Shown here piece by piece: positions 8,689 to 57,899 of a stretch of DNA of 64,000 bases (position 1 is the first letter of the stretch; each line of letters opens with the position of its first letter). The notes beneath the pieces were generated by a model. The model was not told the DNA's origin and did not search any database. It was given only the letters and a program-made list of their open reading frames with translations. Source of the stretch: Calothrix brevissima NIES-22 (GTDB lineage Bacteria; Cyanobacteriota; Cyanobacteriia; Cyanobacteriales; Nostocaceae); contig NZ_AP018207.1 of assembly GCF_002367995.1 (NCBI RefSeq), positions 3,843,083-3,907,082 on the forward strand. The letters run 5' to 3'. The position numbers and the translations under genes are program-made.

Positions 8689-9267
8689 TCTACCCTCCTA
8701 ACTTGATATTCGCCATTTTTATCTGAACAACAAAATGGCGTAACCGTGTTATTGCGGAATTTATCTAGGAGGGGGGGGGATGATATCCGGGTATTTACGG
8801 TTAAAGTTCTTGGGCGATCGCTTCCCTTATATTTTGAATTGATACACTACCAGTATCTATGTATTTGCTTGGTAATTTATAGCAGCAAAAAGGTTGTAGC
8901 CTTTTGTTGTTAATCTTTTTTTAATTTTTTGCGTATACTTACTTGCATTTACTTAAGTATTATCACGCAGATAACAGAGGGTTGAATGATTAACTTTCAA
9001 CCGAAAAAAACTAGAAAATTTCTGATGACAAAATACTTCTCAGCTTGGAAATGCAGCGCTGGCTGATGACTCCAAAAAGAATTATGCTTTACATTTAGCA
9101 ACATTGCCAATATAACTTTAGTTAGAATTTTGGAGCTTATACGAATATTCACGGTTATCCGTTGCCATAATATCAATTTCTCTAGGTTTTTCCCATGATT
9201 GCATAGCTACAAATGTAGGTTGGGTTGAGGAACGAAACCCAACGCCGAAAAACCTTGGCTGCTTAAC
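8689..9267. other. Gene-poor spacer
   Basis: Between the two small genes and the 21-bp repeat I see only a poly-G run near 8769, A/T-rich sequence and one HIP1 octamer. No gene or RNA gene is supported. Confidence 0.5.
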
Positions 9268-9561
9268 GAGTATCAAAGACTCATTCACGAGTATCAAAGA
9301 CTGATTAACGAGTATCAAAGACTAGTTAATGAGTATCAAAGACTGATTAACGAGTATCAAAGACTAGTTAATGAGTATCAAAGACTGATTAACGAGTATC
9401 AAAGACTGGTTAATGAGTATCAAAGACTGGTTAACGAGTATCAAAGACTGGTTAACGAGTATCAAAGACTGGTTAACGAGTATCAAAGACTCATTCACGA
9501 GTATCAAAGACTGGTTAATGAGTATCAAAGACTCATTCACGAGTATCAAAGACTGATTAAT
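9268..9561. repeat. 21-bp tandem repeat, 14 copies
   Basis: Fourteen contiguous units of 21 bases, each beginning GAGTATCAAAGACT and ending in one of a few variants (GGTTAAC, GATTAAC, AGTTAAT, CATTCAC). The invariant first 14 bases contrast with the last 7, which shuffle among few forms. Because 21 is a multiple of three, frames stay open: the plus strand reads EYQRLVN heptads and the minus strand NQSLILV. The plus frame has no ATG, GTG or TTG start between its upstream stop and the array. The minus frame overlaps the end of the next gene. I do not call a protein here. Confidence 0.95.
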
Positions 9562-9595
9562 GAAGTTCCAAGCCTCGGTTAGCAGTATTAATTTA

Positions 9596-10078
9596 TTAAT
9601 TACCAGATGCAGCTTTAGTTGGTCTACCTTTGAGAGCTTTAAAGCGTTCACCTAACTGTTCTGCTAGAGTTTTTAAACCTGGTGTTTTTTTCGCAGCAGT
9701 TTTGACGTAATCATACACTGTTAAACTGCTAGTCATCGCTTCACTACCAACTGCTAAAAGAGTATCATCTACTTGTTCGGTGAGTTGGCGCATTGAGGTT
9801 AAAAGTTCGGTGAGTGTGGTGGCTAATTGATAATCTTGCACAAATTCCTCAACGTTAAAGCTGGCTGGGAGAATCTCCCGGTTAGATTGCGCCGCACTGA
9901 CGCTATTGTTGACAAAGGCGAAGCTTTTATCACCCATTTTGTATAATTTGCGCCGTTCTTCTGTACTTAGGGTAACGAGAAAGGGCAGCTTTTTTTGGAT
10001 GGTTTGTAGTGCTGCTTTAATTTCTTGGATATCTTCTGGAGAAACGGTTGCAGTAATATTTTGATAGGGCATTGCCAA
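9596..10078 (-). CDS. Hypothetical helical protein
   Basis: A 160-residue soluble protein of a type common in cyanobacteria but without a function that I know. It is predicted mostly helical: PEDIQEIKAALQTIQKKLPFLVTL near the start, LSTEERRKLYKMGDKSFAFVNN, then a long amphipathic TELLTSMRQLTEQVDDTLLAVGSEAM. The end is basic (LKGRPTKAASGN), which could contact nucleic acid or be a tail. It stands alone. The 21-bp repeat array lies 35 bases beyond its stop, so the array is in its downstream region. Confidence 0.65.
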   Translation of the reverse strand: MAMPYQNITATVSPEDIQEIKAALQTIQKKLPFLVTLSTEERRKLYKMGDKSFAFVNNSVSAAQSNREILPASFNVEEFVQDYQLATTLTELLTSMRQLTEQVDDTLLAVGSEAMTSSLTVYDYVKTAAKKTPGLKTLAEQLGERFKALKGRPTKAASGN

Positions 10079-10640: not shown

Positions 10641-13600
10641 TTAAATGACTTCTAACTGCTTCAACTTTTTCTGAGCAAACTCCCGCACTTTCTCATCTGG
10701 GTCATTTTTGGCTTTGTCCTGGAACAGTGGTAAAGTTTGGGGATGCTGAGGAAACTGCCTGATAATTATGTCAAGGGCAATGTACCGAGGATTTGGGTTA
10801 GACAGGGGATTATGGCTATCCTTAAACAGGTCATTAGCAGCGCAGTGGTAGTAAATTTCAAACAAATCAGGTTGATATTTAAAGTGTTTAGCTAATTGTG
10901 CGATCGCTGTACCTCGCACATTGTAATTATCATCCTGGATAGCGCGGTTTTTGAGGATGGTTTTGGTGTCCGGGTCATCTGGGAATTTCTCGGTTAATTG
11001 TGCGATCGCTGTACGTCGCACATCGTTATCATCATTCTGGGTAGCGCGATCTTTGAGGATGGTTTTGGTGTCCGGGTCATCTGGGAATTTCTCGGCTAAT
11101 TGTGCGATCGCTGTACGTCGCACATCGTTATCATCATTCTGGGTAGCGCGATCTTTGAGGATGGTTTTGGTGTCCGGGTCATCTGGGAATTTCTCGGCTA
11201 ATTGTGCGATCGCTGTATCTCGCACATCGCTATCATCATCCTGGGTAGCGCGGTGTTTGAGGAAAGTTTTGGTGTTCGGGTCATCTGGAAATTTTTCGGC
11301 TAATTGTGCGATTGCTGTACCTCGCACATACTCATGATCATCCTGGGTAGCGCGGTGTTTGAGGATGGTTTTGGTGTTCGGGTCATCTGGGAATTTCTCG
11401 GCTAATTGTACGATCGCTGCACGTCGCACAGAGTAACTATCATCCTGGGTAGCGCGGTGTTTGAGGATGGTTTTGGTGTTCGGGTCATCTGGGAATTTCT
11501 CGGCTAATTGTGCGATTGCTGTACCTCGCACATAACCAGCATCATCCTGGGTAGCGCGGTCTTTGAGGATGGTTTTGGTGTCCGGGTCATCTTTAAAGTT
11601 CTGGGCTAATTGTGCGATCGCTGCACGTCGCACATCGTAATCATCATCCTGGGTAGCACGATGTTTGAGGATGGTTTTGGTGTCCGGGTCATCTTTAAAG
11701 TTCTGGGCTAATTGTGCGATCGCTGCACATCGCACATAGTTATCATCATCCTGGGTAGCATGGTGTTTGAGGATGGTTTTGGTGTCCGGGTCATCTTTAA
11801 AGTGCTGGGCTAATTGTTCGATGGCTGCACCTCGCATATCATTATCATCATCCTGGGTAGCACAGTGTTTGAGGAAGGTTTTGGTATCAGAGTCATCTTG
11901 GAAGTGCTGGGCTAATTGTTCGATGGCTGCACATCGCACATAGTTATCATCATCCTGGGTAGCACGGTGTCTGAGAAAGGTTTTGGTGTCGGAGTCATCT
12001 TGGAAGTTCTGAGCTAATTGTTCGATGGCTGCACATCGCACATAGTTATCATCATCTTGGGTAGCGCAGTGCTTGAGAAAGGTTTTAGTGTCCGGGTCAT
12101 CTTTGAAGTTCTCGGCTAATTGTGCGATCGCTGTACGTCGCACATCTTTATCATCATCCTGGGTAGCGCACTGTTTGAGGATGGTTTTGGTGTCCGGGTC
12201 ATCTTTGAAGTGCTGGGCTAATTCGTGGATGGCTACAAATCGCACATAATTATCATCATCCTGGGTAGCGCGGTGTTTGAGGATGGTTTTGGTGTCCGGG
12301 TGATCTGGGAATTTTTCGGCTAATTGTGCGATCGCTACACCTCGCATATAGTAATCATCATCTTGGGTAGCGCGGTCTTTGAGCCAGGTTTTGGTGTCGA
12401 GAGATTCTTGCCAAGTGGTTGCGACTGCTGCAACAGCTTGAGTCCGAATTTCCTGAACTAGCTTAGTTTCTTCTCGATTAATTCGTGAGTCGTAATAGTA
12501 CCAGAGGTCATAACTAGTTAAAGCTTTTATTTTGTTCAGTAATTTATTGGCTATTAACGCAATGACTGAGCGATTTCTCACCTCTCCAAGGCACTTAGCT
12601 GCTAGAAATAAATTGATGAACTTTTCCTCTTCCCCATCTTGCACCATTAAATATTCAATAATTTCACCAACAAATTTAGGCTCAATCATTCCTGCAATTA
12701 GCAGCAATACCTCTTGCCAAGTTTCATCATGCCAGTGTTTACCAAAAACTTCATTCTTCAGTTGCTCAAGTGTTAAAGTTTGCGTTTCTTTAAACTGCCA
12801 GACAAACTCCCAAGCACAGAAATATTCTAAAAATGTTCTATGAACAAAGGCATAGTAATCTGCACCCAAGAAACATAACATAAAGTTGCGAGTCCGCAGT
12901 TGATTAATCATTACCCTCGCAGCTTCTCTGGCTTGACTGACTTCTATAGTTTTGAGATAGTCAGTCAAAATCTTAACTAAATCATCTTCTCTAATTAAAT
13001 TACCTGCTAAACCTTTGTCGCTAGTTTGCATAAAATAAGCAACTTGACGCAGCATTGCTTGCTTATCTTTATAATCAATAGTTTTAGGATCTATTCTTTT
13101 ATCTTCTTGTAATGCACGTTCTACATCCCATTGATGTAACAATACCCGCGATGCTTGGTTATAAAGTTCGGCTCTATCTCTGGGTAATTCCTGATTGCGA
13201 TTGAGAATTGCCATCATTGTCAACAATAAAGGATTACCTGCTAATTCTTTAATAGCCTGAGAATTCTCAATTCCTCTTTGCAGTCGCTCCCGTTTTCTGA
13301 CTTTATCTACTGCATCGCTGAAAGTTAAATCATGCCAACGCTGAATAAAATTCTGAATTTGTGCTGAGTCTAAATCTTGCAACATGAAGTGATGAAATTC
13401 AGCATTCTTTAACCGTTGCGGTTTATAGCCAATGACGCGAGAAGTAACAATTACCTGCACATGAGGATATTCATTAGTGAAGCGATGAATATCTGTAATC
13501 ACATCCTCTCGCTTACCAGGATCAAAAACTTCATCTAAACCATCAAACATCACCAAAGCTTTACCAGCTTTAAGCTGTGCGTGCAGTTGATGTTGATTGA

Positions 13601-14738
13601 GATGAGAAATTGCACCGCTACATTTATGGAAAAATTCGAGAAAATTATGGCATTCCTTTTCATCTCGCCGTCGCATATAAGTGCGTAACTCAATTAATAA
13701 AGGAATCGGCAAGGAGATAATATTATTCAGTGGCGACTCTGCCCAATTTAAAGCCAGATATTGCAACAATGTAGACTTACCTGAACCAGGATCGCCCAAA
13801 ATTACAACATATTTATACTTTTGCTTTTCATTGACTATATCTAATACTGGACGTATTGGTTGTTCTAAATAAACACGTTTATGCTTTTCTAATTCTTCTG
13901 TTGCGACTTCTGTTTCTAATTGGTTAGTTTCTTTTAATCGTCTGAGATGTTCTTTGGGTAGTTCGTAAACTGCGGGTAAAACTTGTTCAACTTCCCGGAC
14001 ATTTTGCTCGATAAATATGCGCCATAATTTTAGTTCGTTATAAGCGTAACCACTAGTATCAAAGCTATCTAATTTGAGATGACCGTAACTTTCTCGAATT
14101 CCTTCTTGATAGCGTTCTAAATCAAAATCGGGAATAATCCCGGCAATCTGTGTAGTGTTTTCGCGAATTTTATCTAAATTTCTAGAATCAAGAATTTCTC
14201 TAAGTTCAGGAACTTCTAAAATTATTTCTTTAACTTTCTTGATATATTTCTTACTCAGCAGTTGCCAATTAAAATCATCTGGTAAGGGAGATGAAGAATT
14301 AAGTTGATACCAAATTTCTGCTAATTTCTTGGTGTTGATAGCTTGACAGTTATATTCAAAAGCATTGCCTAATATTTCTCTGACTTGGGGATGCTTAAGA
14401 AATTGCTTAATAGGCTGAATATAGTTTTTAATTTCATCTTCATCAAGTGCATGATATTCTAAATCCTGCTGCATCAGTTGCAAAAATTCCGTCAGCGCCA
14501 TAACTTCAGCTTTTTGCAGTGGTTCTTGCTGAAAAGGAACAGTTACAGCAGAGTGAAAGATAAATTTAAAAAAATCTTTAGCGCAGTCTTTGACTAAATC
14601 TTTGGCAAAGTCTTCGCTGATAATGGTTTTAACGAGAAATCCAAATGCTTTACCAGCTACCCAGGTAGTGAACCATTCAATCAGCATACTCGTGTCTATT
14701 GATATTTTGACTATGAGTATATACATCAGTCTCAGCAA
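10641..14738 (-). CDS. NACHT NTPase with long HEAT-like repeat array (NLR-like)
   Basis: A 1365-residue STAND-type protein. The N-terminal helical region (1-290) is followed by a NACHT ATPase: Walker A GDPGSGKST at about 315-323, Walker B LVMFDGLDE at about 395-403, then VTSRVIGY and a winged-helix region with HRTFLEYFCAWEF. From about residue 780 to 1290 come fifteen 34-residue HEAT-like units of the pattern LAxxFxDDPDTKTILKxRAT, fourteen of them near identical at DNA level (102-base period). Bacterial NACHT proteins of this build are antiphage or signalling receptors in which repeats sense a trigger and the N-terminal part acts as effector. No effector domain was recognised. A likelier start is Met18 (14687, MLIEWFTTWVAGKAF). 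It stands alone. Confidence 0.9.
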   Translation of the reverse strand: MLRLMYILIVKISIDTSMLIEWFTTWVAGKAFGFLVKTIISEDFAKDLVKDCAKDFFKFIFHSAVTVPFQQEPLQKAEVMALTEFLQLMQQDLEYHALDEDEIKNYIQPIKQFLKHPQVREILGNAFEYNCQAINTKKLAEIWYQLNSSSPLPDDFNWQLLSKKYIKKVKEIILEVPELREILDSRNLDKIRENTTQIAGIIPDFDLERYQEGIRESYGHLKLDSFDTSGYAYNELKLWRIFIEQNVREVEQVLPAVYELPKEHLRRLKETNQLETEVATEELEKHKRVYLEQPIRPVLDIVNEKQKYKYVVILGDPGSGKSTLLQYLALNWAESPLNNIISLPIPLLIELRTYMRRRDEKECHNFLEFFHKCSGAISHLNQHQLHAQLKAGKALVMFDGLDEVFDPGKREDVITDIHRFTNEYPHVQVIVTSRVIGYKPQRLKNAEFHHFMLQDLDSAQIQNFIQRWHDLTFSDAVDKVRKRERLQRGIENSQAIKELAGNPLLLTMMAILNRNQELPRDRAELYNQASRVLLHQWDVERALQEDKRIDPKTIDYKDKQAMLRQVAYFMQTSDKGLAGNLIREDDLVKILTDYLKTIEVSQAREAARVMINQLRTRNFMLCFLGADYYAFVHRTFLEYFCAWEFVWQFKETQTLTLEQLKNEVFGKHWHDETWQEVLLLIAGMIEPKFVGEIIEYLMVQDGEEEKFINLFLAAKCLGEVRNRSVIALIANKLLNKIKALTSYDLWYYYDSRINREETKLVQEIRTQAVAAVATTWQESLDTKTWLKDRATQDDDYYMRGVAIAQLAEKFPDHPDTKTILKHRATQDDDNYVRFVAIHELAQHFKDDPDTKTILKQCATQDDDKDVRRTAIAQLAENFKDDPDTKTFLKHCATQDDDNYVRCAAIEQLAQNFQDDSDTKTFLRHRATQDDDNYVRCAAIEQLAQHFQDDSDTKTFLKHCATQDDDNDMRGAAIEQLAQHFKDDPDTKTILKHHATQDDDNYVRCAAIAQLAQNFKDDPDTKTILKHRATQDDDYDVRRAAIAQLAQNFKDDPDTKTILKDRATQDDAGYVRGTAIAQLAEKFPDDPNTKTILKHRATQDDSYSVRRAAIVQLAEKFPDDPNTKTILKHRATQDDHEYVRGTAIAQLAEKFPDDPNTKTFLKHRATQDDDSDVRDTAIAQLAEKFPDDPDTKTILKDRATQNDDNDVRRTAIAQLAEKFPDDPDTKTILKDRATQNDDNDVRRTAIAQLTEKFPDDPDTKTILKNRAIQDDNYNVRGTAIAQLAKHFKYQPDLFEIYYHCAANDLFKDSHNPLSNPNPRYIALDIIIRQFPQHPQTLPLFQDKAKNDPDEKVREFAQKKLKQLEVI

Positions 14739-17873: not shown

Positions 17874-19377
17874 CTGGAGTTTAGACTAAATGGGAGAGAT
17901 GAAAGAGAAAAAGGGGATGTCTGATTGAAGACAGTCCCCCTTTCGGCAGAAGCTAAGAGAGAATCACCTACTCTTATCTGCCAATATGAAACGTGCCAGA
18001 CTCGAAGAATTTCGTCAAGCCGCCTATACGCATCTAGGCAAAGCACATGATGCAACATTTGAACTAACAGATGCGATACTGTTGACCCGTAATGTCTACA
18101 GTCTGGCAGATTTATCTTTATCGCCAGTGTTTAGACGTAAATGGCCGAGTATCTATGAAGCGATACAAGATACCAAACCAGACCGTGAGAAATTAATGGA
18201 GTTATATATCAAGCAAATACCAACAGAAAAACGCATATTGTTGGCAGGAGACCATACAGCTTGGTCACGCCCAGATGCGGTGACACTCAAAGAACGGACA
18301 ATAGAACACAGTAGCACAGCGATCGCGGGAAATAAACCGATTACGATTGGGCAGGGATATAGTACTATAGCTTGGATACCAGAGGATTCAGGAAGTTGGG
18401 CACTACCGCTGAGGCATGAACGGATTACCAGTTGGGACAATCCGATTGAGAAAGCAGTTGAACAACTCAAAAAGGTATGTGAATCAATGTCTGTTCGACC
18501 AATTTCGCTTTGGGACAGTGAATATGGTTGTGCGCCTTTCGTATTAAAGACAGCTAGTATAAAAGCCGATATCTTAGTTAGACTGCGTTCAAATCTGTGT
18601 CTATGGGGCGCACCACCTGCTTACTCTGGCAAGGGTCGTCCTCGCAAGCATGGTGCTCAATTTAAACTCAATGAACCCTCAACCTGGGGCGAAGTGGCAT
18701 CTGTGCTGGAAGTAAATGACCCAAAATTGGGACGAGTTAAAGTCAGTCTGTGGGAAGATTTGCATTTTCGCAAAGCTGCTGCACGCCCAATGATGCTACT
18801 GAAGGTGGAACGTCTTGATCTTGATGGCAATTTGAGAGTATTAAGACCCTTGTGGTTGGCTTGGGTTGGGGAACAAATGCCACCATTGGATGAAGTTTGG
18901 CGATTGTACTTGCGCCGATTCACGATTGACCATTGGTATCGTTTTCTTAAGCAACGCTTACATTGGACAGTACCAAAATTCAGTACTCCAGAACAATGTG
19001 AACATTGGAGTGACTTAATGCCGTTAATCACTTGGGAGTTATGGTTAGCTTGTGATATCGTTGCTGATAATCCTCTTCCTTGGCAGAAGTCAATGGATAA
19101 ATTGACCCCAGGACGAGTTGCTCAAGCTATGGGTGGAGTTTTCGCCGCGATTGGTACTCCTACCTCTCCACCCAAACCTCGTGGAAAGTCCCTTGGGTGG
19201 ACACCAGGTAAAGTCCGTAACCGGAAAATACGATATCCAATTGTTAAAAAGACTGCTTCTAAACCACGCAAAGAGGAACAAAAATCTGCTTAATCTCAAA
19301 TATCTTCATTCTTGAAGGTTGTGTTTTATTAACTCAGCACTGCTGGGTCATTTGTTGCTGTCTAGTCTAAACTCAAA
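17874..19377 (+). mobile_element. Insertion sequence, 1504 bp, copy 1
   Basis: The element is bounded by a 12-base perfect terminal inverted repeat, GAGTTTAGACTA at 17877 and TAGTCTAAACTC ending at 19374, with three extra end bases on each side (CTG left, AAA right). It is flanked by a 6-base GTATTA duplication. It carries one transposase gene and a leader of about 110 bases. A second copy lies at 56396-57899 in the same orientation, offset by exactly 38522 bases, with an identical encoded protein. I place it with IS4/IS701-like DDE elements but cannot name the family with certainty. Confidence 0.93.
17986..19293 (+). CDS. DDE transposase of insertion sequence, copy 1
   Basis: A 435-residue transposase. 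Likely catalytic residues are Asp in LLAGDHTAWSRP (about residue 89), Asp in SLWDSEYG (about 178) and an acidic residue in YLRRFTIDHWYRFLK. That last segment fits the IS4-type Y-(2)-R-(3)-E-(6)-K signature except that Glu is Asp. Basic clusters GKGRPRKHG and TPGKVRNRKIRYPIVKK at the C-terminus could bind DNA. The start at 17986 lies 110 bases inside the element. The gene is full length with no frameshift, so it may be active. It belongs to a transposase family frequent in cyanobacteria. Confidence 0.9.
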   Translation: MKRARLEEFRQAAYTHLGKAHDATFELTDAILLTRNVYSLADLSLSPVFRRKWPSIYEAIQDTKPDREKLMELYIKQIPTEKRILLAGDHTAWSRPDAVTLKERTIEHSSTAIAGNKPITIGQGYSTIAWIPEDSGSWALPLRHERITSWDNPIEKAVEQLKKVCESMSVRPISLWDSEYGCAPFVLKTASIKADILVRLRSNLCLWGAPPAYSGKGRPRKHGAQFKLNEPSTWGEVASVLEVNDPKLGRVKVSLWEDLHFRKAAARPMMLLKVERLDLDGNLRVLRPLWLAWVGEQMPPLDEVWRLYLRRFTIDHWYRFLKQRLHWTVPKFSTPEQCEHWSDLMPLITWELWLACDIVADNPLPWQKSMDKLTPGRVAQAMGGVFAAIGTPTSPPKPRGKSLGWTPGKVRNRKIRYPIVKKTASKPRKEEQKSA

Positions 19378-41524: not shown

Positions 41525-41554
41525 TTGACCTATACCCAGAAGATAGTGTATAGT
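41525..41554 (+). promoter_or_regulatory. Candidate promoter of the Cas4-like/Argonaute operon
   Basis: TTGACC (41525-41530) and TATAGT (41549-41554) are 18 bases apart, a good match to the housekeeping sigma-factor consensus. A short inverted repeat, TTTTCTT/AAGAAAA, overlaps the expected start site and could be an operator. The first gene starts about 100 bases downstream. Confidence 0.45.
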
Positions 41555-41651
41555 TTTCTTTTTTAAGAAAAATAGAAAAATTCTACTTATGATTCGAGAT
41601 GTTGCGCAGTATGCTAGACGCCAAATTCTATCATAGGGACTAGCATTTTTT

Positions 41652-42473
41652 ATGAAAAAGCGTTGGCTGCCATCTGCAAGTTATAATCTTTGGTCTTTAT
41701 CAAATCCACGAGTGGGACAAGAATTCTGGTTTTGTGATATGAAGCGAGGCTTTAAGAAGGTTCGTCAAAAAGAAGCTCAAGTTAAGGCTTTGTTGGATCA
41801 AGATAACAATCATCAGCGAATTGGTAAATTGGCACAAGCGGGGGTTTATGAATTTTATCAACATCCGCAATTTTTGTTCCAATCTCAGGGTGTGGTAAAA
41901 GTTGTAGAGCTGCTTAAATTAAATCAAGAGCCTGAGGCAGTTCAAGAGCGAGTAATTTTGATTATAGAAAAATACTTTAATAACCCTATTCTGCAAGGAA
42001 AGCAAATTATTCAGTTGAGCAAAGGTGATGAAGAATTGTTTTCACCGATCGCTATTCAAGAGGGTACTTATTCTTTCAATTTATATGCACCAACTGACTG
42101 TGTTTTTAAAGACAATGATGGTAAGATCCATATTTTAGATTTTAAAACAGGTAACTCAGAATTTGATAAACGACAAGCTTACGTGTATTTATTAGCAGCC
42201 AGCTATCTCTATCCGCAGCAAACACTTATAGCCTCATTTTACAACTTGGAAACTAGCCAGGCATCTGACATAATTACAGCTACTGAAGAGGAATTAAGAT
42301 TCGTACAGATAGAGTTATCTGACATAGCAAAAAAACATGAAATTGAAAAAAATAGGTACAGAGAAAATCCTTCGGATTTTGCCAAAATATTTCCTCCAAA
42401 TCCTGGAAAATCATGTAATTACTGTACATTTAATAGTATTTGTAAATTTTCCGTAAGTGAGGTTTCTAAGTGA
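41652..42473 (+). CDS. Cas4-like PD-(D/E)XK nuclease with Fe-S cysteines
   Basis: A 273-residue RecB/Cas4-type nuclease. Motif II is Asp149 (PTDCVF), motif III is Asp163-Phe-Lys165 (ILDFKTGN), and Gln174 or its neighbour in the QAYVYLLAASYLYP helix follows as in the RecB family. The four cysteines expected of a Cas4-type iron-sulfur cluster are present: Cys28 near the N-terminus and a C-terminal CxxCx5C (CNYCTFNSIC). No CRISPR array or cas gene is nearby. Its stop overlaps the GTG start of the Argonaute gene by four bases, so the two are translationally coupled and probably work together. Confidence 0.85.
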   Translation: MKKRWLPSASYNLWSLSNPRVGQEFWFCDMKRGFKKVRQKEAQVKALLDQDNNHQRIGKLAQAGVYEFYQHPQFLFQSQGVVKVVELLKLNQEPEAVQERVILIIEKYFNNPILQGKQIIQLSKGDEELFSPIAIQEGTYSFNLYAPTDCVFKDNDGKIHILDFKTGNSEFDKRQAYVYLLAASYLYPQQTLIASFYNLETSQASDIITATEEELRFVQIELSDIAKKHEIEKNRYRENPSDFAKIFPPNPGKSCNYCTFNSICKFSVSEVSK

Positions 42474-44728
42474 TTGCTGCTGCAAATATTACTAAACCAA
42501 AAATTTTTTCTAGCGAAATTTTCCGTCTGAATTTTTCTCACCTTAATGTTTTACGTTTTCAACTTAATCCTCAGATTGAACAGGAAGAAGCTATACGCTT
42601 GAGCTTCCATCTTAGTCTGACTTTACCTCAAATAGTTGTCGTTTGGGATAGCCCATATTTTTATGCTTTGGCAATTCCTAATTATCCTTTACATCTTTTC
42701 GTTCAGGAGTGGGAAGACATTGTAGCACAAGTTGTTGAAAAGGGACTACCAGAATTTAGCGATCGCACTTGGCAATTTCAAGAGATTCCTCTTACAGGAA
42801 CAGTACCAGCTAATGTTATTTCTTTATTAGCTTTTCAAGTATTAAAGACATTTAAACCATATCCATTTTCATCCATAACTGCACTCCCTAAAAATGGCGT
42901 GCAAGTAAAACGTGAGGTAAAAGTTTGGTCAGAACCAATCGAAATCGATGGAATCTTACAACCAGCTATTGCTTTAACGATTAAAAGCAAGTTTGTCTTA
43001 ACAAAAAATCTATCTGATTTCTATCTTAATCATCCTAATAAAGATAACCCAGACGAGGTTTTAATCGATCTAAATGTTCGCTCCCGTTCTCGTGATATTC
43101 AAGGTAACGGTACTATTAAACAAATTATTAAAGAGCCTTCCTTAGTACACAAGCAAAAACTCATCAATCTAGCCAAGAGTGAAATTAGTAAGCAAGCTCT
43201 GCAAGATGTTCTATCTGATAAGCTCCTGGTTGCTGTAAAGTTTGGCAAAAGTAAAAAGCTCTATGAATATGGTATGTCTGCTTTGTATCCCTGCGTCACG
43301 TCTGAAACAGCTAGTAGGTTTGGAGTTAATTGGGGACAATTGCTTAAAGAAACCAAAATTTCTTACAAAGAACGAACAAATTTATTAGCTACATACAAAA
43401 AAGAAGCTGAAACTGCCTTAAGTGCTTACGGATTTGAGTTAGGACTCAGCATCAATAGCCTTCAGTATCCGAACTTATTTTGGTATCCCTCTGTTCCAAT
43501 TGAAAATACACTCCTGCTGTTTGGTAACGGATTGATTGGCGCTCAGAATAAAATTCTTACAGGTCTTTCTAAAGGTGGTGTTTACCGCCGTCACAACAAA
43601 TTTTCTGACCTATCCAGACCAATTCGCATTACTGTTCTGAATCTTTGTGAAGTGGAGTTTGATTACTTTATAGAACAGCTTAAACAACGATTAAAAAGCT
43701 ATAAATTTGAGAGCCTATTTGTTAGCAACTCAATATCGATACAAAACTTCAGTGCGGCAAAGGCAAGAGCAAAAGTGGAGGAAGTAGTGAATGAATTAAT
43801 GGAAATTCCACCTGACATAGTTTTGGCATTTTTGCCTCAGAGTGACCGTAATGCTGATGAGGAAGAGGGTGGTAGCCTTTATCACAAAATATACGATTTA
43901 TTACTTAGTCGCCAGATAGCTAGCCAGATGATTTATGAGGATACATTGAAGAATCCTGATTATTACAAATACAAAAATATTCTCAATCAGGTGGTTCCAG
44001 GAATTCTCGCTAAGGTGGGTAATTTACCTTTTGTTCTGGCAGAGCCTCTACCAATAGCTGATTATTTCATTGGTTTAGATATTTCTAGAGAATCTAAGTC
44101 AAAATTGGCTGGAACGGTTAATGCTTGTGCAAGTATTCGTCTTCATGGTAAGCAAGGAGAGTTTATTCGCTATCGTCTAGAAGATGCTTTAATTGAAGGT
44201 GAGGAAATCCCTAAAAGAGTATTAGAAAAATTACTACCAGCAAAGCAACTAGAACGAAAAACTGTACTGATTTATCGTGATGGGCGCTTTTGCGGAAAAG
44301 AAGTTGCTAATCTCCTAGAATGGGCTGAAGCTATTGGCTGTAAATTGATATTAGTAGAGTGTAGAAAGTCTGGTATTCCTCGACTATATAATTTTGTTAA
44401 CAAAACCATAACTGCACCAGAAAAAGGTTTATCTCTCCGTATTTCTTCTACTGAAGCAGTTCTAGTAACTACTCAAGTAACTGAAGAGATAGGTCTTGCC
44501 GATCCTTTACGTTTGACAGTTCTCACAGCAAACCATCGAGCTTTAATTTCTCCTCCCATAGATCAGGTGGTTGAAATTACGTTGAAACTCACCTTACTGC
44601 ATCATGGAGCATTAAAAATGCCTCGCTTACCAATGCCAGTATATGGAGCGCATAAGATGGCAAAACTACGATTAAGGGGGATTTATCCAAGCAGTATGCT
44701 AGAAGGTGATTGCCAGTTTTGGCATTAA
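42470..44728 (+). CDS. Prokaryotic Argonaute, long type with intact catalytic tetrad
   Basis: A 752-residue Argonaute: N and PAZ-like regions (1 to about 370), MID (about 375-525) and PIWI (about 530-752). The PIWI tetrad appears complete: Asp537 (FIGLDIS), a Glu near 578 (EGEEIP), Asp604 (IYRDGRF) and His728 (PVYGAHKMA). Such proteins use short nucleic-acid guides to cut invading DNA or RNA. In the MID pocket the usual Y-x3-K reads Tyr471...Tyr475, while Gln486 and Lys515 are kept, so 5'-phosphate binding may differ. The start is GTG, coupled to the nuclease gene. The next feature is a terminator shared with psbA. Confidence 0.9.
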   Translation: MIAAANITKPKIFSSEIFRLNFSHLNVLRFQLNPQIEQEEAIRLSFHLSLTLPQIVVVWDSPYFYALAIPNYPLHLFVQEWEDIVAQVVEKGLPEFSDRTWQFQEIPLTGTVPANVISLLAFQVLKTFKPYPFSSITALPKNGVQVKREVKVWSEPIEIDGILQPAIALTIKSKFVLTKNLSDFYLNHPNKDNPDEVLIDLNVRSRSRDIQGNGTIKQIIKEPSLVHKQKLINLAKSEISKQALQDVLSDKLLVAVKFGKSKKLYEYGMSALYPCVTSETASRFGVNWGQLLKETKISYKERTNLLATYKKEAETALSAYGFELGLSINSLQYPNLFWYPSVPIENTLLLFGNGLIGAQNKILTGLSKGGVYRRHNKFSDLSRPIRITVLNLCEVEFDYFIEQLKQRLKSYKFESLFVSNSISIQNFSAAKARAKVEEVVNELMEIPPDIVLAFLPQSDRNADEEEGGSLYHKIYDLLLSRQIASQMIYEDTLKNPDYYKYKNILNQVVPGILAKVGNLPFVLAEPLPIADYFIGLDISRESKSKLAGTVNACASIRLHGKQGEFIRYRLEDALIEGEEIPKRVLEKLLPAKQLERKTVLIYRDGRFCGKEVANLLEWAEAIGCKLILVECRKSGIPRLYNFVNKTITAPEKGLSLRISSTEAVLVTTQVTEEIGLADPLRLTVLTANHRALISPPIDQVVEITLKLTLLHHGALKMPRLPMPVYGAHKMAKLRLRGIYPSSMLEGDCQFWH

Positions 44729-44797
44729 AATTAACCTCAACGTTACAGATATTTTGCGAGCGCCAGTTTTGGCTGTAACACTACCAATATAACCATG

Positions 44798-44831
44798 AAA
44801 AAGCGCCCTCCCAACCGGGAGAGCGCTTTTC
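44798..44831. terminator. Bidirectional terminator between Argonaute and psbA
   Basis: AAAAGCGC and GCGCTTTT arms with an inner CTCCC/GGGAG stem and AACC loop. T runs on both strands make it work for the plus-strand Argonaute operon and the minus-strand psbA. Confidence 0.85.
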
Positions 44832-44865
44832 AATTCACAGAGAAGCTATTGTTATCTTCAGACAA

Positions 44866-47359: not shown

Positions 47360-49570
47360 ATGTGTCCAGTTGGGGTTCGTACTAGTCACTCAACTCATGC
47401 CCTAGAAACGGGTGTGGCAAAGCTTTGGCTTTTATTGGTGGGTGTAAACCAATATGAAGATGAAGAAATACCCAGTTTGCAATATTCAGCTTTGGATTGT
47501 CAGGGGTTAGGTGAAGCTTTACATATTGCAACACAAGCTTTTCCCCAAAAAGAGGTAATAATATATAACGATTTCGCTTCTAAACAGCCAAAGTTAGCAA
47601 ATGTTCTAACCAGTCTCAGAGAAATTGCGGCAGTGACTAAACCGATTGACACTGTGCTATTTTATTTCTCTGGGCATGGGATGCTAGAACCATCGACGCA
47701 GCAAGTAATACTTTGTTTACAAGATACACAAAAATCAAACTTAATAGATACTGGTTTACAGTTGCAGGAAGTTTTGCAACTATTAGAAAATTGTTCTGCC
47801 CAGCAACAATTATTAATATTAGATGCTTGTCATAGTGGAGGAATGACGCTGTTAGGTGCAAGAGGCGAAGTAGATCCGCAGCTTAACCCGACACCAGAGT
47901 TGGTGGAACTTCTGCGACAACGCGCCGCCAAACGAAAAGGATTTTATGCTTTATTATCTTGCGATCGCTCTCAGCAATCTTGGGAATTTCCCCAATTAGG
48001 GCATGGAGTATTTACATATTACTTAATTCGCGGGTTAAAAGGAGAAGCTGCTGATTCTCAAGGTATTATCGAAGCTGATGGACTTTATCGCTATGTTTAT
48101 CACCAAACACTGACATATATAGATAAAGCTAATCAACAACTACGAGTGATTAATCAACTAAAAAAAGGAAGGGGAGATAATTCGATCCATCCCGAATATC
48201 CTTCACAAACTCCTAAGCGCATTGTAGAAGGAGTTGGTGAAGTAATTTTAGGAATTAAACCGAAAAATATTCCCGCCTCACGACATCCACGACAAGCATT
48301 AATTGTAGAAGGATTGTATCAAAGTCAAGCCTCCCTATCCTTGAGTAAAATACTCAACACTGCTGGTAGTTTTGCCGTTAATTATTGGACTATAGGTGGG
48401 AACAATTCCCAGTCAAATGTGCGCAAAGCAATTCAAAAATGCTTACTTTCGGAATCTTTTGCGGAATTAAATACTAATTCTACTAACACAGATCAAATTG
48501 CAACAGTTTTATTATATTTGCGTGGGCAAATTCAAGAGACAGAACAAGGCGAAGCCAGATTATTATTGTCTGATGAAGTAACAATCAATCGCGCATGGTT
48601 GAAAAAACAACTACGCCGATGTCAGTCGCAACAAATTATTATTTTAGATTGTCCCATAGAAAAAGGTGGCGGGAAAGTCTCGCTGCGGGATTGGCTAGAA
48701 GAACTGCAATTAGGATTAGATGCAGGACAATGTTTAATTGCGGCGGCTGTACCCCCTGAAAATAGGGAAAAATTTGCAAATACGCTGTTAGCAACCTTAA
48801 ATCAAGGAATACAAGCAAGTGGACTCACCGCAGCTGCTTGGATTACTCAATTACAAGTAGAATTTGCCCAAACTGATATTCAATTATATTTTTGGTTGTC
48901 TGGTTCTCAGGGAATCATTGAAGTTTTACCGGGTAAAACTCTATTTACTAATGAAAATATCGAAGAAAAAGCGGAAAATATTCATAATTCTCCCCCAGAT
49001 GATTTAACTTCTGAAGTGGGGATTGATTACGCTTATTTACGCGATTTACTGCAAGCTCAAAGATGGCAAGAAGCAGATCGAGAAACTACAAATCTCATCC
49101 TCAAGGTAGTTGAAAAACAGTCCTACTTAGATATTCATACAATCAACAAAATTCCTTGTAAAGACCTTTATACTATTGACAAACTTTGGGTAAGTTATAG
49201 TCATGGACGCTTTGGATTCAGCGTTCAGAGTCGTATCTGGGAGGGTATTAAAGATAGTGCTGCTACCGATCCGATGTTGGCTTTAATGATTGGTAGTGCC
49301 AAAGTTGCTGCGTCTGAAACTTGCATTGACTTTGCAAATCGTGTTGGTTGGCGCTTACGAGATTATTGGCTTGATTATAACAGTCTCACCTGGGAGGGGG
49401 ATGCACCTATGGGACATCTACCTTATGTAGGTTTTTTTGAACCGGTTTGGCGTGTCAAAGTGTTAGGAGTGTGGGAATGGCATAGTGCGATCGCAACTGC
49501 TAATTGGTGGGAATTATGCGTTGCTCTGTTTAGGCGCATTGAAACTTGTAAAAACGGTAGTTCTATCTAA
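47360..49570 (+). CDS. Caspase-like (orthocaspase) protein fused to GUN4 domain
   Basis: A 736-residue multidomain protein. The N-terminal peptidase C14 fold (about 20-260) has the dyad His106 (FYFSGHG) and Cys157 (LLILDACHSGG), both intact. The middle (about 300-535) is another alpha/beta region without clear family. The C-terminus (about 558-715) is a GUN4 domain: YLRDLLQAQRWQEADRETT, IPCKDLYTIDKLWVSYSHGRFGFSVQSRIW, then GWR. GUN4 binds porphyrins and stimulates Mg-chelatase in chlorophyll synthesis. The fusion suggests a protease gated by tetrapyrrole binding. GUN4 fused to kinase or caspase domains is known in cyanobacteria, but the function is not established. Confidence 0.9.
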   Translation: MCPVGVRTSHSTHALETGVAKLWLLLVGVNQYEDEEIPSLQYSALDCQGLGEALHIATQAFPQKEVIIYNDFASKQPKLANVLTSLREIAAVTKPIDTVLFYFSGHGMLEPSTQQVILCLQDTQKSNLIDTGLQLQEVLQLLENCSAQQQLLILDACHSGGMTLLGARGEVDPQLNPTPELVELLRQRAAKRKGFYALLSCDRSQQSWEFPQLGHGVFTYYLIRGLKGEAADSQGIIEADGLYRYVYHQTLTYIDKANQQLRVINQLKKGRGDNSIHPEYPSQTPKRIVEGVGEVILGIKPKNIPASRHPRQALIVEGLYQSQASLSLSKILNTAGSFAVNYWTIGGNNSQSNVRKAIQKCLLSESFAELNTNSTNTDQIATVLLYLRGQIQETEQGEARLLLSDEVTINRAWLKKQLRRCQSQQIIILDCPIEKGGGKVSLRDWLEELQLGLDAGQCLIAAAVPPENREKFANTLLATLNQGIQASGLTAAAWITQLQVEFAQTDIQLYFWLSGSQGIIEVLPGKTLFTNENIEEKAENIHNSPPDDLTSEVGIDYAYLRDLLQAQRWQEADRETTNLILKVVEKQSYLDIHTINKIPCKDLYTIDKLWVSYSHGRFGFSVQSRIWEGIKDSAATDPMLALMIGSAKVAASETCIDFANRVGWRLRDYWLDYNSLTWEGDAPMGHLPYVGFFEPVWRVKVLGVWEWHSAIATANWWELCVALFRRIETCKNGSSI

Positions 49571-56395: not shown

Positions 56396-57899
56396 CTGGA
56401 GTTTAGACTAAATGGGAGAGATGAAAGAGAAAAAGGGGATGTCTGATTGAAGACAGTCCCCCTTTCGGCAGAAGCTAAGAGAGAATCACCTACTCTTATC
56501 TGCCAATATGAAACGTGCCAGACTCGAAGAATTTCGTCAAGCCGCCTATACGCATCTAGGCAAAGCACATGATGCAACATTTGAACTAACAGATGCGATA
56601 CTGTTGACCCGTAATGTCTACAGTCTGGCAGATTTATCTTTATCGCCAGTGTTTAGACGTAAATGGCCGAGTATCTATGAAGCGATACAAGATACCAAAC
56701 CAGACCGTGAGAAATTAATGGAGTTATATATCAAGCAAATACCAACAGAAAAACGCATATTGTTGGCAGGAGACCATACAGCTTGGTCACGCCCAGATGC
56801 GGTGACACTCAAAGAACGGACAATAGAACACAGTAGCACAGCGATCGCGGGAAATAAACCGATTACGATTGGGCAGGGATATAGTACTATAGCTTGGATA
56901 CCAGAGGATTCAGGAAGTTGGGCACTACCGCTGAGGCATGAACGGATTACCAGTTGGGACAATCCGATTGAGAAAGCAGTTGAACAACTCAAAAAGGTAT
57001 GTGAATCAATGTCTGTTCGACCAATTTCGCTTTGGGACAGTGAATATGGTTGTGCGCCTTTCGTATTAAAGACAGCTAGTATAAAAGCCGATATCTTAGT
57101 TAGACTGCGTTCAAATCTGTGTCTATGGGGCGCACCACCTGCTTACTCTGGCAAGGGTCGTCCTCGCAAGCATGGTGCTCAATTTAAACTCAATGAACCC
57201 TCAACCTGGGGCGAAGTGGCATCTGTGCTGGAAGTAAATGACCCAAAATTGGGACGAGTTAAAGTCAGTCTGTGGGAAGATTTGCATTTTCGCAAAGCTG
57301 CTGCACGCCCAATGATGCTACTGAAGGTGGAACGTCTTGATCTTGATGGCAATTTGAGAGTATTAAGACCCTTGTGGTTGGCTTGGGTTGGGGAACAAAT
57401 GCCACCATTGGATGAAGTTTGGCGATTGTACTTGCGCCGATTCACGATTGACCATTGGTATCGTTTTCTTAAGCAACGCTTACATTGGACAGTACCAAAA
57501 TTCAGTACTCCAGAACAATGTGAACATTGGAGTGACTTAATGCCGTTAATCACTTGGGAGTTATGGTTAGCTTGTGATATCGTTGCTGATAATCCTCTTC
57601 CTTGGCAGAAGTCAATGGATAAATTGACCCCAGGACGAGTTGCTCAAGCTATGGGTGGAGTTTTCGCCGCGATTGGTACTCCTACCTCTCCACCCAAACC
57701 TCGTGGAAAGTCCCTTGGGTGGACACCAGGTAAAGTCCGTAACCGGAAAATACGATATCCAATTGTTAAAAAGACTGCTTCTAAACCACGCAAAGAGGAA
57801 CAAAAATCTGCTTAATCTCAAATATCTTCATTCTTGAAGGTTGTGTTTTATTAACTCAGCACTGCTGGGTCATTTGTTGCTGTCTAGTCTAAACTCAAA
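56396..57899 (+). mobile_element. Insertion sequence, 1504 bp, copy 2
   Basis: Same ends (GAGTTTAGACTA and TAGTCTAAACTC), same orientation and same length as copy 1 at 17874. It is flanked by a TCATCTA duplication of 7 bases (56389-56395 and 57900-57906). It is inserted within the hybrid kinase on the opposite strand, between the HisKA and ATPase domains. Different target duplications show that both copies arose by separate insertions. Confidence 0.93.
56508..57815 (+). CDS. DDE transposase of insertion sequence, copy 2
   Basis: A 435-residue transposase with the same translation as that at 17986, including the DHTAWSRP, WDSEYG and YLRRFTIDHWYRFLK segments. No frameshift or stop is present. 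Identity over the whole protein between copies 38.5 kb apart indicates a recent transposition. Confidence 0.92.
   Translation: MKRARLEEFRQAAYTHLGKAHDATFELTDAILLTRNVYSLADLSLSPVFRRKWPSIYEAIQDTKPDREKLMELYIKQIPTEKRILLAGDHTAWSRPDAVTLKERTIEHSSTAIAGNKPITIGQGYSTIAWIPEDSGSWALPLRHERITSWDNPIEKAVEQLKKVCESMSVRPISLWDSEYGCAPFVLKTASIKADILVRLRSNLCLWGAPPAYSGKGRPRKHGAQFKLNEPSTWGEVASVLEVNDPKLGRVKVSLWEDLHFRKAAARPMMLLKVERLDLDGNLRVLRPLWLAWVGEQMPPLDEVWRLYLRRFTIDHWYRFLKQRLHWTVPKFSTPEQCEHWSDLMPLITWELWLACDIVADNPLPWQKSMDKLTPGRVAQAMGGVFAAIGTPTSPPKPRGKSLGWTPGKVRNRKIRYPIVKKTASKPRKEEQKSA

Follow-up and report, generated by a model that had tools for sequence, protein, structure and literature searches.

The DNA analysed here is a 64,000-nucleotide stretch of Calothrix brevissima NIES-22 (contig NZ_AP018207.1, positions 3,843,083 to 3,907,082; hereafter the window, whose own coordinates are used below). 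Its plus strand carries a two-gene operon in which a gene for a Cas4-like PD-(D/E)XK nuclease is followed directly by the gene of a long Argonaute, and both reading frames are open in this genome (Table 1). The operon is a sound and ordinary member of a defence pair that has already been described in cyanobacteria and is common in this clade. Less expected is that the same genome, like most of the relatives sampled, keeps a stand-alone copy of the nuclease gene; it is this solo nuclease, more than the operon itself, that is worth following.

Table 1. Features of the operon and its surroundings, in window coordinates
Feature	Position	Strand	Basis
Candidate sigma-70-like promoter, TTGACC-N18-TATAGT	41525..41554	+	10/12 consensus positions matched
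5' leader containing a short inverted repeat, TATGAT...ATCATA	41588..41635	+	retained in 4/4 aligned relatives
Argonaute-associated Cas4-like PD-(D/E)XK nuclease, 273 amino acids	41652..42473	+	Pfam PDDEXK_1, PADLOC Aga_Cas4-like_Nuc, PDB 9iab/9iac
GTGA stop/start overlap between nuclease and Argonaute genes	42470..42473	+	sequence; four-base overlap in 32/47 paired loci
Long Argonaute, GTG start, 752 amino acids, tetrad D537 E578 D604 H728	42470..44728	+	Pfam Piwi, PADLOC pAgo_II, PDB 9iad, tetrad columns
Terminator hairpin between ago (+) and convergent psbA (-)	44796..44832	both	fold z -7.5 (+), -6.5 (-)

The two proteins and their relatives

Judged by its sequence, the Argonaute is apparently active and of the long type. 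It matches the Pfam Piwi domain (E=1e-14), scores 1142 bits against the PADLOC model pAgo_II (PDLC02380) and aligns over residues 12-751 with PDB entry 9iad, 'Protein argonaute' (E=3.1e-231); its further PDB matches are long Argonautes that include Aquifex, Clostridium, KmAgo and Thermus proteins. The family profile matches 15 PDB sequences at 1e-5 or better, which we take from their names to be long catalytic Argonautes or mutants thereof. As a full-length protein with a PIWI domain and a DEDX tetrad, the window Argonaute would be classed as long-A. The tetrad, placed by alignment to solved relatives, was followed through 87 Argonautes; identical rows were entered once, L001, L005, L033, L035, L036-L073 and L134-L159 were not entered, and L094, L118, L169, L175, L200 and L201 were dropped as short or disrupted. 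The D, E and D of the tetrad are invariant in 87/87; at the fourth position 74 have D, 10 have H and three have a gap. Those with H are the window protein, L002, L003, L004, L007, L074, L078 and L079, plus L186 and L187 of another family, a distribution which argues that the preliminary description of this DNA was right to read an apparently complete DEDH tetrad and that the H is a sub-clade trait. H in this place thus occurs in two separate groups of an otherwise D clade, and the window pair adds to the described defence system one member from the H-for-D sub-clade. Among candidate guide-pocket residues, K515 is kept in 87/87, Y489 in 79/87 and Q507 in 74/87.

The nuclease matches Pfam PDDEXK_1 (E=3.8e-11), the PADLOC model Aga_Cas4-like_Nuc (PDLC02405; E=1.2e-137) and the PDB entries 9iab (E=9.5e-94) and 9iac (E=8.4e-92), the latter sharing 97% identity with the nuclease that is paired with an Argonaute at locus L021. 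Residue conservation was assessed in 66 aligned nucleases, 47 paired with an Argonaute and 19 solo (from 53 and 20, respectively, identical rows being entered once). The four cysteines C28, C255, C258 and C264, which the preliminary description had picked out as Cas4-type in a PD-(D/E)XK nuclease, are invariant in 66/66, and the same holds for D149, D163, K165, Q175 and Y179 and for G58 and Q62. The cysteines form a set of the iron-sulphur, Cas4-like type and may bind a cluster. The RecB/Cas4 motif is GxxxH; where it would be expected, the family would read GxxxQ (G58, Q62), provided that the motif applies and the register is right. The window protein has Y at position 69, where 19/21 aligned sequences have H.

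CRISPR (clustered regularly interspaced short palindromic repeats) Cas4 shares with the window nuclease the PD-(D/E)XK core and the four cysteines, which are features of the Cas4 family, but the window nuclease misses the curated Cas4 score (TIGR00372, 14.6 bits against a cut-off of 65) and has no array beside it. A direct-repeat scan of the window found no CRISPR-like array, in agreement with the preliminary description. The latter also saw no cas gene in the window, a negative that was not checked gene by gene; the sole Cas1 match of the genome lies ~3.1 Mb away. Given this score and this genomic context, a CRISPR Cas4 identity was rejected; even with E-values as high as 10 allowed, the nuclease family profile did not match any Cas4 structure. 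There is also a weak likeness to AddB-type nucleases (TIGR02786, E=0.0061), from which the window nuclease differs in being a stand-alone protein and in scoring 14.7 bits where the cut-off is 486.5. A Cas4 phylogenomics paper (PMC5704561), in the part available, leaves Argonaute unmentioned and names cyanobacteria once.

Both window genes match their PDB and PADLOC counterparts over almost their full length, and in the alignments with 9iad, 9iab and 9iac the catalytic and cysteine residues of the window proteins can be recognised by eye; 9iad differs in that the fourth residue of its tetrad is D, where the window Argonaute has H. The three PDB codes are consecutive and probably come from one study. 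Argonautes of cyanobacteria and nucleases of the Cas4 family (ACE1) are reportedly the subject of a 2025 paper in Molecular Cell, in which the nuclease is said to process DNA guides and to bind the Argonaute; ACE1, a name for the Argonaute-associated Cas4-like nuclease, presumably applies to the window pair as well. Earlier reports, as far as their available portions go, had already met such pairs: in Microcystis and in one Clostridium, apparently active long Argonautes are accompanied by nucleases related to Cas4 (Makarova 2009, PMC2743648), Cas4 orthogroups are found among Argonaute operons and 45% of catalytic long-A Argonautes have an operon nuclease (Ryazansky 2018, PMC6299218), and Cas4-like genes are occasionally found in clusters with intact long-A genes (Taton 2023, PMC10653904). 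In the portion available, the last of these also reports that transposon loss of ago or cas4 in S. elongatus favours conjugation or maintenance of an RSF1010 plasmid, as well as natural transformation. By that description, SeAgo and the Cas4-like nuclease of S. elongatus PCC 7942 resemble the window pair in combining a cyanobacterial long-A Argonaute with a Cas4-like nuclease. The papers of 2009, 2018 and 2023, taken with the matches in PADLOC and the PDB, identify the pair as a known system, and the suggestion that this is a less usual pairing finds no support.

Conservation of the pair and its proposed function

A survey of gene neighbourhoods in other cyanobacteria had been proposed in the preliminary description, which regarded a lack of conservation as fatal to its reading; the pair turns out to be conserved. 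In the class sample (n=291) an Argonaute match was obtained in 33 genomes, a nuclease match in 32 and both in 19, and in 19/19 of these an Argonaute has a nuclease next to it on the contig; the 14 Argonaute-only genomes have matches of at most 39% identity, except for a 108-residue fragment (G053). The family sample (n=192) has an Argonaute match in 40 genomes, and the nuclease adjoins the Argonaute in 30/30 loci examined (the best 30 of the 40), one of which, L094, has a stop in the Argonaute. Among the 10 genomes outside these 30, G325 and G454 have, by coordinates, a nuclease beside a split Argonaute, while G293, G296, G338, G350, G354, G356, G418 and G420, with part-length Argonaute matches only, fall outside the neighbour survey. 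Argonaute matches are present in 60 genomes of the order sample (n=243), 51 of which also have a nuclease match; adjacency is not universal there, G338 having an Argonaute fragment only and the two genes of G555 lying 3.4 kb apart.

The GTGA overlap, correctly reported in the preliminary description, has four-base counterparts at 32 of the 47 paired loci counted in Table 1, a set from which six duplicate retrievals were removed. Separately, L001, L005, L117 and L036-L065, mostly duplicates of loci under other numbers, were dropped before counting. L192 and L193 show the opposite arrangement, with the Argonaute upstream of the nuclease. Distances between Argonautes and distances between nucleases are correlated (52 pairs, r = 0.93; 2000 permutations reached 0.28 at most). 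Chance adjacency was rejected on the strength of the pairing across samples, the overlap and this correlation. That the genes are chance neighbours, or that this genome is in the course of losing the operon by decay, is very hard to credit: the stops and split Argonaute matches in several relatives and the want of an Argonaute in all seven genus-mates would fit such a history, but here both frames are open and all catalytic residues are present, and the shared overlap and the conservation of the pair speak against chance.

The operon is patchy and probably mobile, given that the pair is also present on a 44-kb plasmid of Nostoc and that an Argonaute is found in 0/7 sampled genus-mates. No clean empty site was seen among these seven. 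In 7/7 the query is matched at its acyltransferase end, as far as query base 830-847, and its Uma2 part matches elsewhere; the other flank, the caspase gene, also lies elsewhere in the genus-mates, in G292 and G365, for example, at a distance on the same contig. As to carriage by phages, the nuclease went unmatched in 50,697 phage records.

The cyanobacterial long Argonaute and its associated Cas4-like nuclease are likely to form a two-gene system for DNA-guided DNA interference, with the nuclease most probably making or trimming the guides. This reading draws on the near full-length matches to 9iad, 9iab and 9iac, the PADLOC matches to both genes and the complete tetrad, and also on the adjacency in the family and class samples, the correlated distances and the phenotypes in S. 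elongatus; the earlier idea of an apparently active Argonaute that shares its operon with a Cas4-like nuclease is supported. Gene structure, residues, the conserved pairing and the co-divergence of the two proteins come from the analysis itself; the joint mRNA, the guide chemistry, the division of labour and a defensive role in this strain are what we infer, in part from work on relatives. Both proteins would probably be translated from one mRNA by way of the GTGA overlap; the Argonaute would bind short 5'-phosphorylated DNA guides and, once loaded, would cut matching invader DNA at its D-E-D-H site; the nuclease would share a complex or pathway with the Argonaute and, going by its relatives, would most likely make or trim the guides from single-stranded DNA. 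As a result, plasmids, phage DNA and transforming DNA that enter the cell would be lost.

In another, unlikely division of labour, the nuclease would act after target recognition, degrading Argonaute-cut DNA or nearby single strands and making no guides. A full nuclease site, tightly coupled in one operon to an Argonaute of complete tetrad, fits either step, as do all the computed results, and it is the biochemistry of relatives that places the nuclease at guide processing.

Several observations weigh against an interference system in which both proteins take part. G145, one of the 19 class-sample genomes with both genes, has an extra Argonaute match at the start of contig C242, where no nuclease is listed. 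Nine Argonaute genomes of the order sample are without a nuclease match; in G554 and G598 the Argonaute is full-length (44-46% identity), and the other seven match at 31-36%. The cases of G554, G598 and contig C242 of G145 imply that the nuclease is not strictly needed. The Argonaute gene has internal stops or is split in G325, G356, G404, G454, G531, G546, G569, G606, G618, G645, G649 and G659, which suggests that it is often lost. The distance correlation, finally, is in part attributable to shared descent alone.

Argonaute-free copies of the nuclease

A second nuclease copy, 52% identical to the first, is located in the same genome at C1:4225569-4226351 (L102:7938-8810), ~318 kb beyond the window end. 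No Argonaute was found in the 16.8 kb around it, and the gene is divergent from a phosphoglucomutase gene. In the family sample the nuclease matches in 177/192 genomes, whereas a trace of Argonaute by either search is confined to 45 (40 in the protein search, 39 with Pfam Piwi), and 133/192 genomes have a nuclease without any Argonaute trace; 177 and 133 are counts of genomes rather than of individual copies, and G324, G358 and G410 are among the weak or partial matches of the 177. The nuclease is carried by 7/7 of the genus-mates that have no Argonaute.

The solo gene has a characteristic neighbourhood. The nuclease has a phosphoglucomutase/phosphomannomutase gene (so named by Pfam) beside it at 18/19 solo loci examined in groups f1 and f3: in a first set the mutase gene is found at 13/14 loci (12 at 76-100% identity, query locus included; L115 44% and partial; none at L113), and in a second set at 5/5. 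The mutase gene is found at 0/13 paired loci with longer flanks, L116 among them, and at 0/3 solo loci of family f60. The 19 solo copies aligned retain all catalytic and cysteine residues. In a careful unrooted tree of 66 rows they make up one side of a branch (support 100/99); a quick tree of 99 rows, for which 23 paired, 5 solo and 3 f60 rows were chosen from newly added loci, again brings the solo copies, now 24, into one group (99) beside many paired lineages. The f60 loci L188, L190 and L191 are a second group of Argonaute-free copies without a phosphoglucomutase neighbour. These three group apart in the 99-row tree, where long branches make their placement unsure, and possibly reflect an independent loss of the Argonaute partner. 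Nuclease-only genomes of the class and order samples occur only in groups f1, f3 and f60.

On balance, and going by the sequences, it seems probable that most genomes of the family and of f3 also carry the nuclease as a vertically inherited gene free of any Argonaute, beside phosphoglucomutase and nuclease-competent by its residues. The defence nuclease would then have left the Argonaute for a housekeeping task, which might be DNA repair or a control on the uptake of DNA; the opposite course may also have been taken, and in f60 the same step may have been taken separately. Both trees are unrooted. Another reading, which we consider improbable, is that the nuclease is by origin a host enzyme of DNA repair or housekeeping, used by the Argonaute and with the operon as one of two homes. 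The many family genomes with a nuclease and no trace of Argonaute are in line with it, and so are the synteny of the solo copy and its lower median ratio of non-synonymous to synonymous substitution (dN/dS), 0.11 for solo against 0.24 for paired copies, values obtained with synonymous sites near saturation (usable comparisons, with dS under 1.5, were 44/78 solo and 41/66 paired). Against it, the solo copies of the unrooted trees fall into a single clade, with many paired lineages of deeper branching beside it, and nuclease-only genomes of the class and order samples keep to f1, f3 and f60; these two facts favour a solo form derived from the paired copy.

It is important to point out that the PADLOC model of the partner nuclease, PDLC02405, also recognises solo copies (E=6.8e-124 and 3.7e-123), the second of these being L105 of G097, a genome without an Argonaute match in the class and family searches. 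The nuclease gene alone is therefore no evidence of a defence system. The solo nuclease also offers a clean way to test the role of the nuclease without the Argonaute.

Candidate control sites and other features of the window

The promoter-like site noted in the preliminary description has its TATAGT at the same position in 4/4 close relatives aligned; the site alone is not above chance, with eight promoter-like sites in the region against 10.1 expected from shuffles. The inverted repeat TATGAT/ATCATA in the leader is a possible operator. Folding of the leader RNA is not significant relative to shuffles (z -1.3), and a short open reading frame in the leader was rejected, as it looks non-coding by eye when set against relatives. 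The terminator proposed downstream of ago fared better, the hairpin folding far better than shuffles on either strand; a simple terminator scan gave two hits against 2.7 expected and caught part of this hairpin, on the minus strand only. Searches of the window with Rfam and for tRNA genes returned nothing.

Elsewhere in the window, 17986-19293 and 56508-57815 encode identical 435-amino-acid translations of a DDE transposase, probably from a recently active insertion sequence. A NACHT-HEAT STAND protein is encoded at 10641-14738, with a 102-base repeat present 15 times at 10893-12422, and might be a further defence or signalling gene. A tandem repeat array with a 21-base unit occupies 9221-9619, and the gene at 47360-49570 combines a caspase domain and a GUN4-like domain in one protein.

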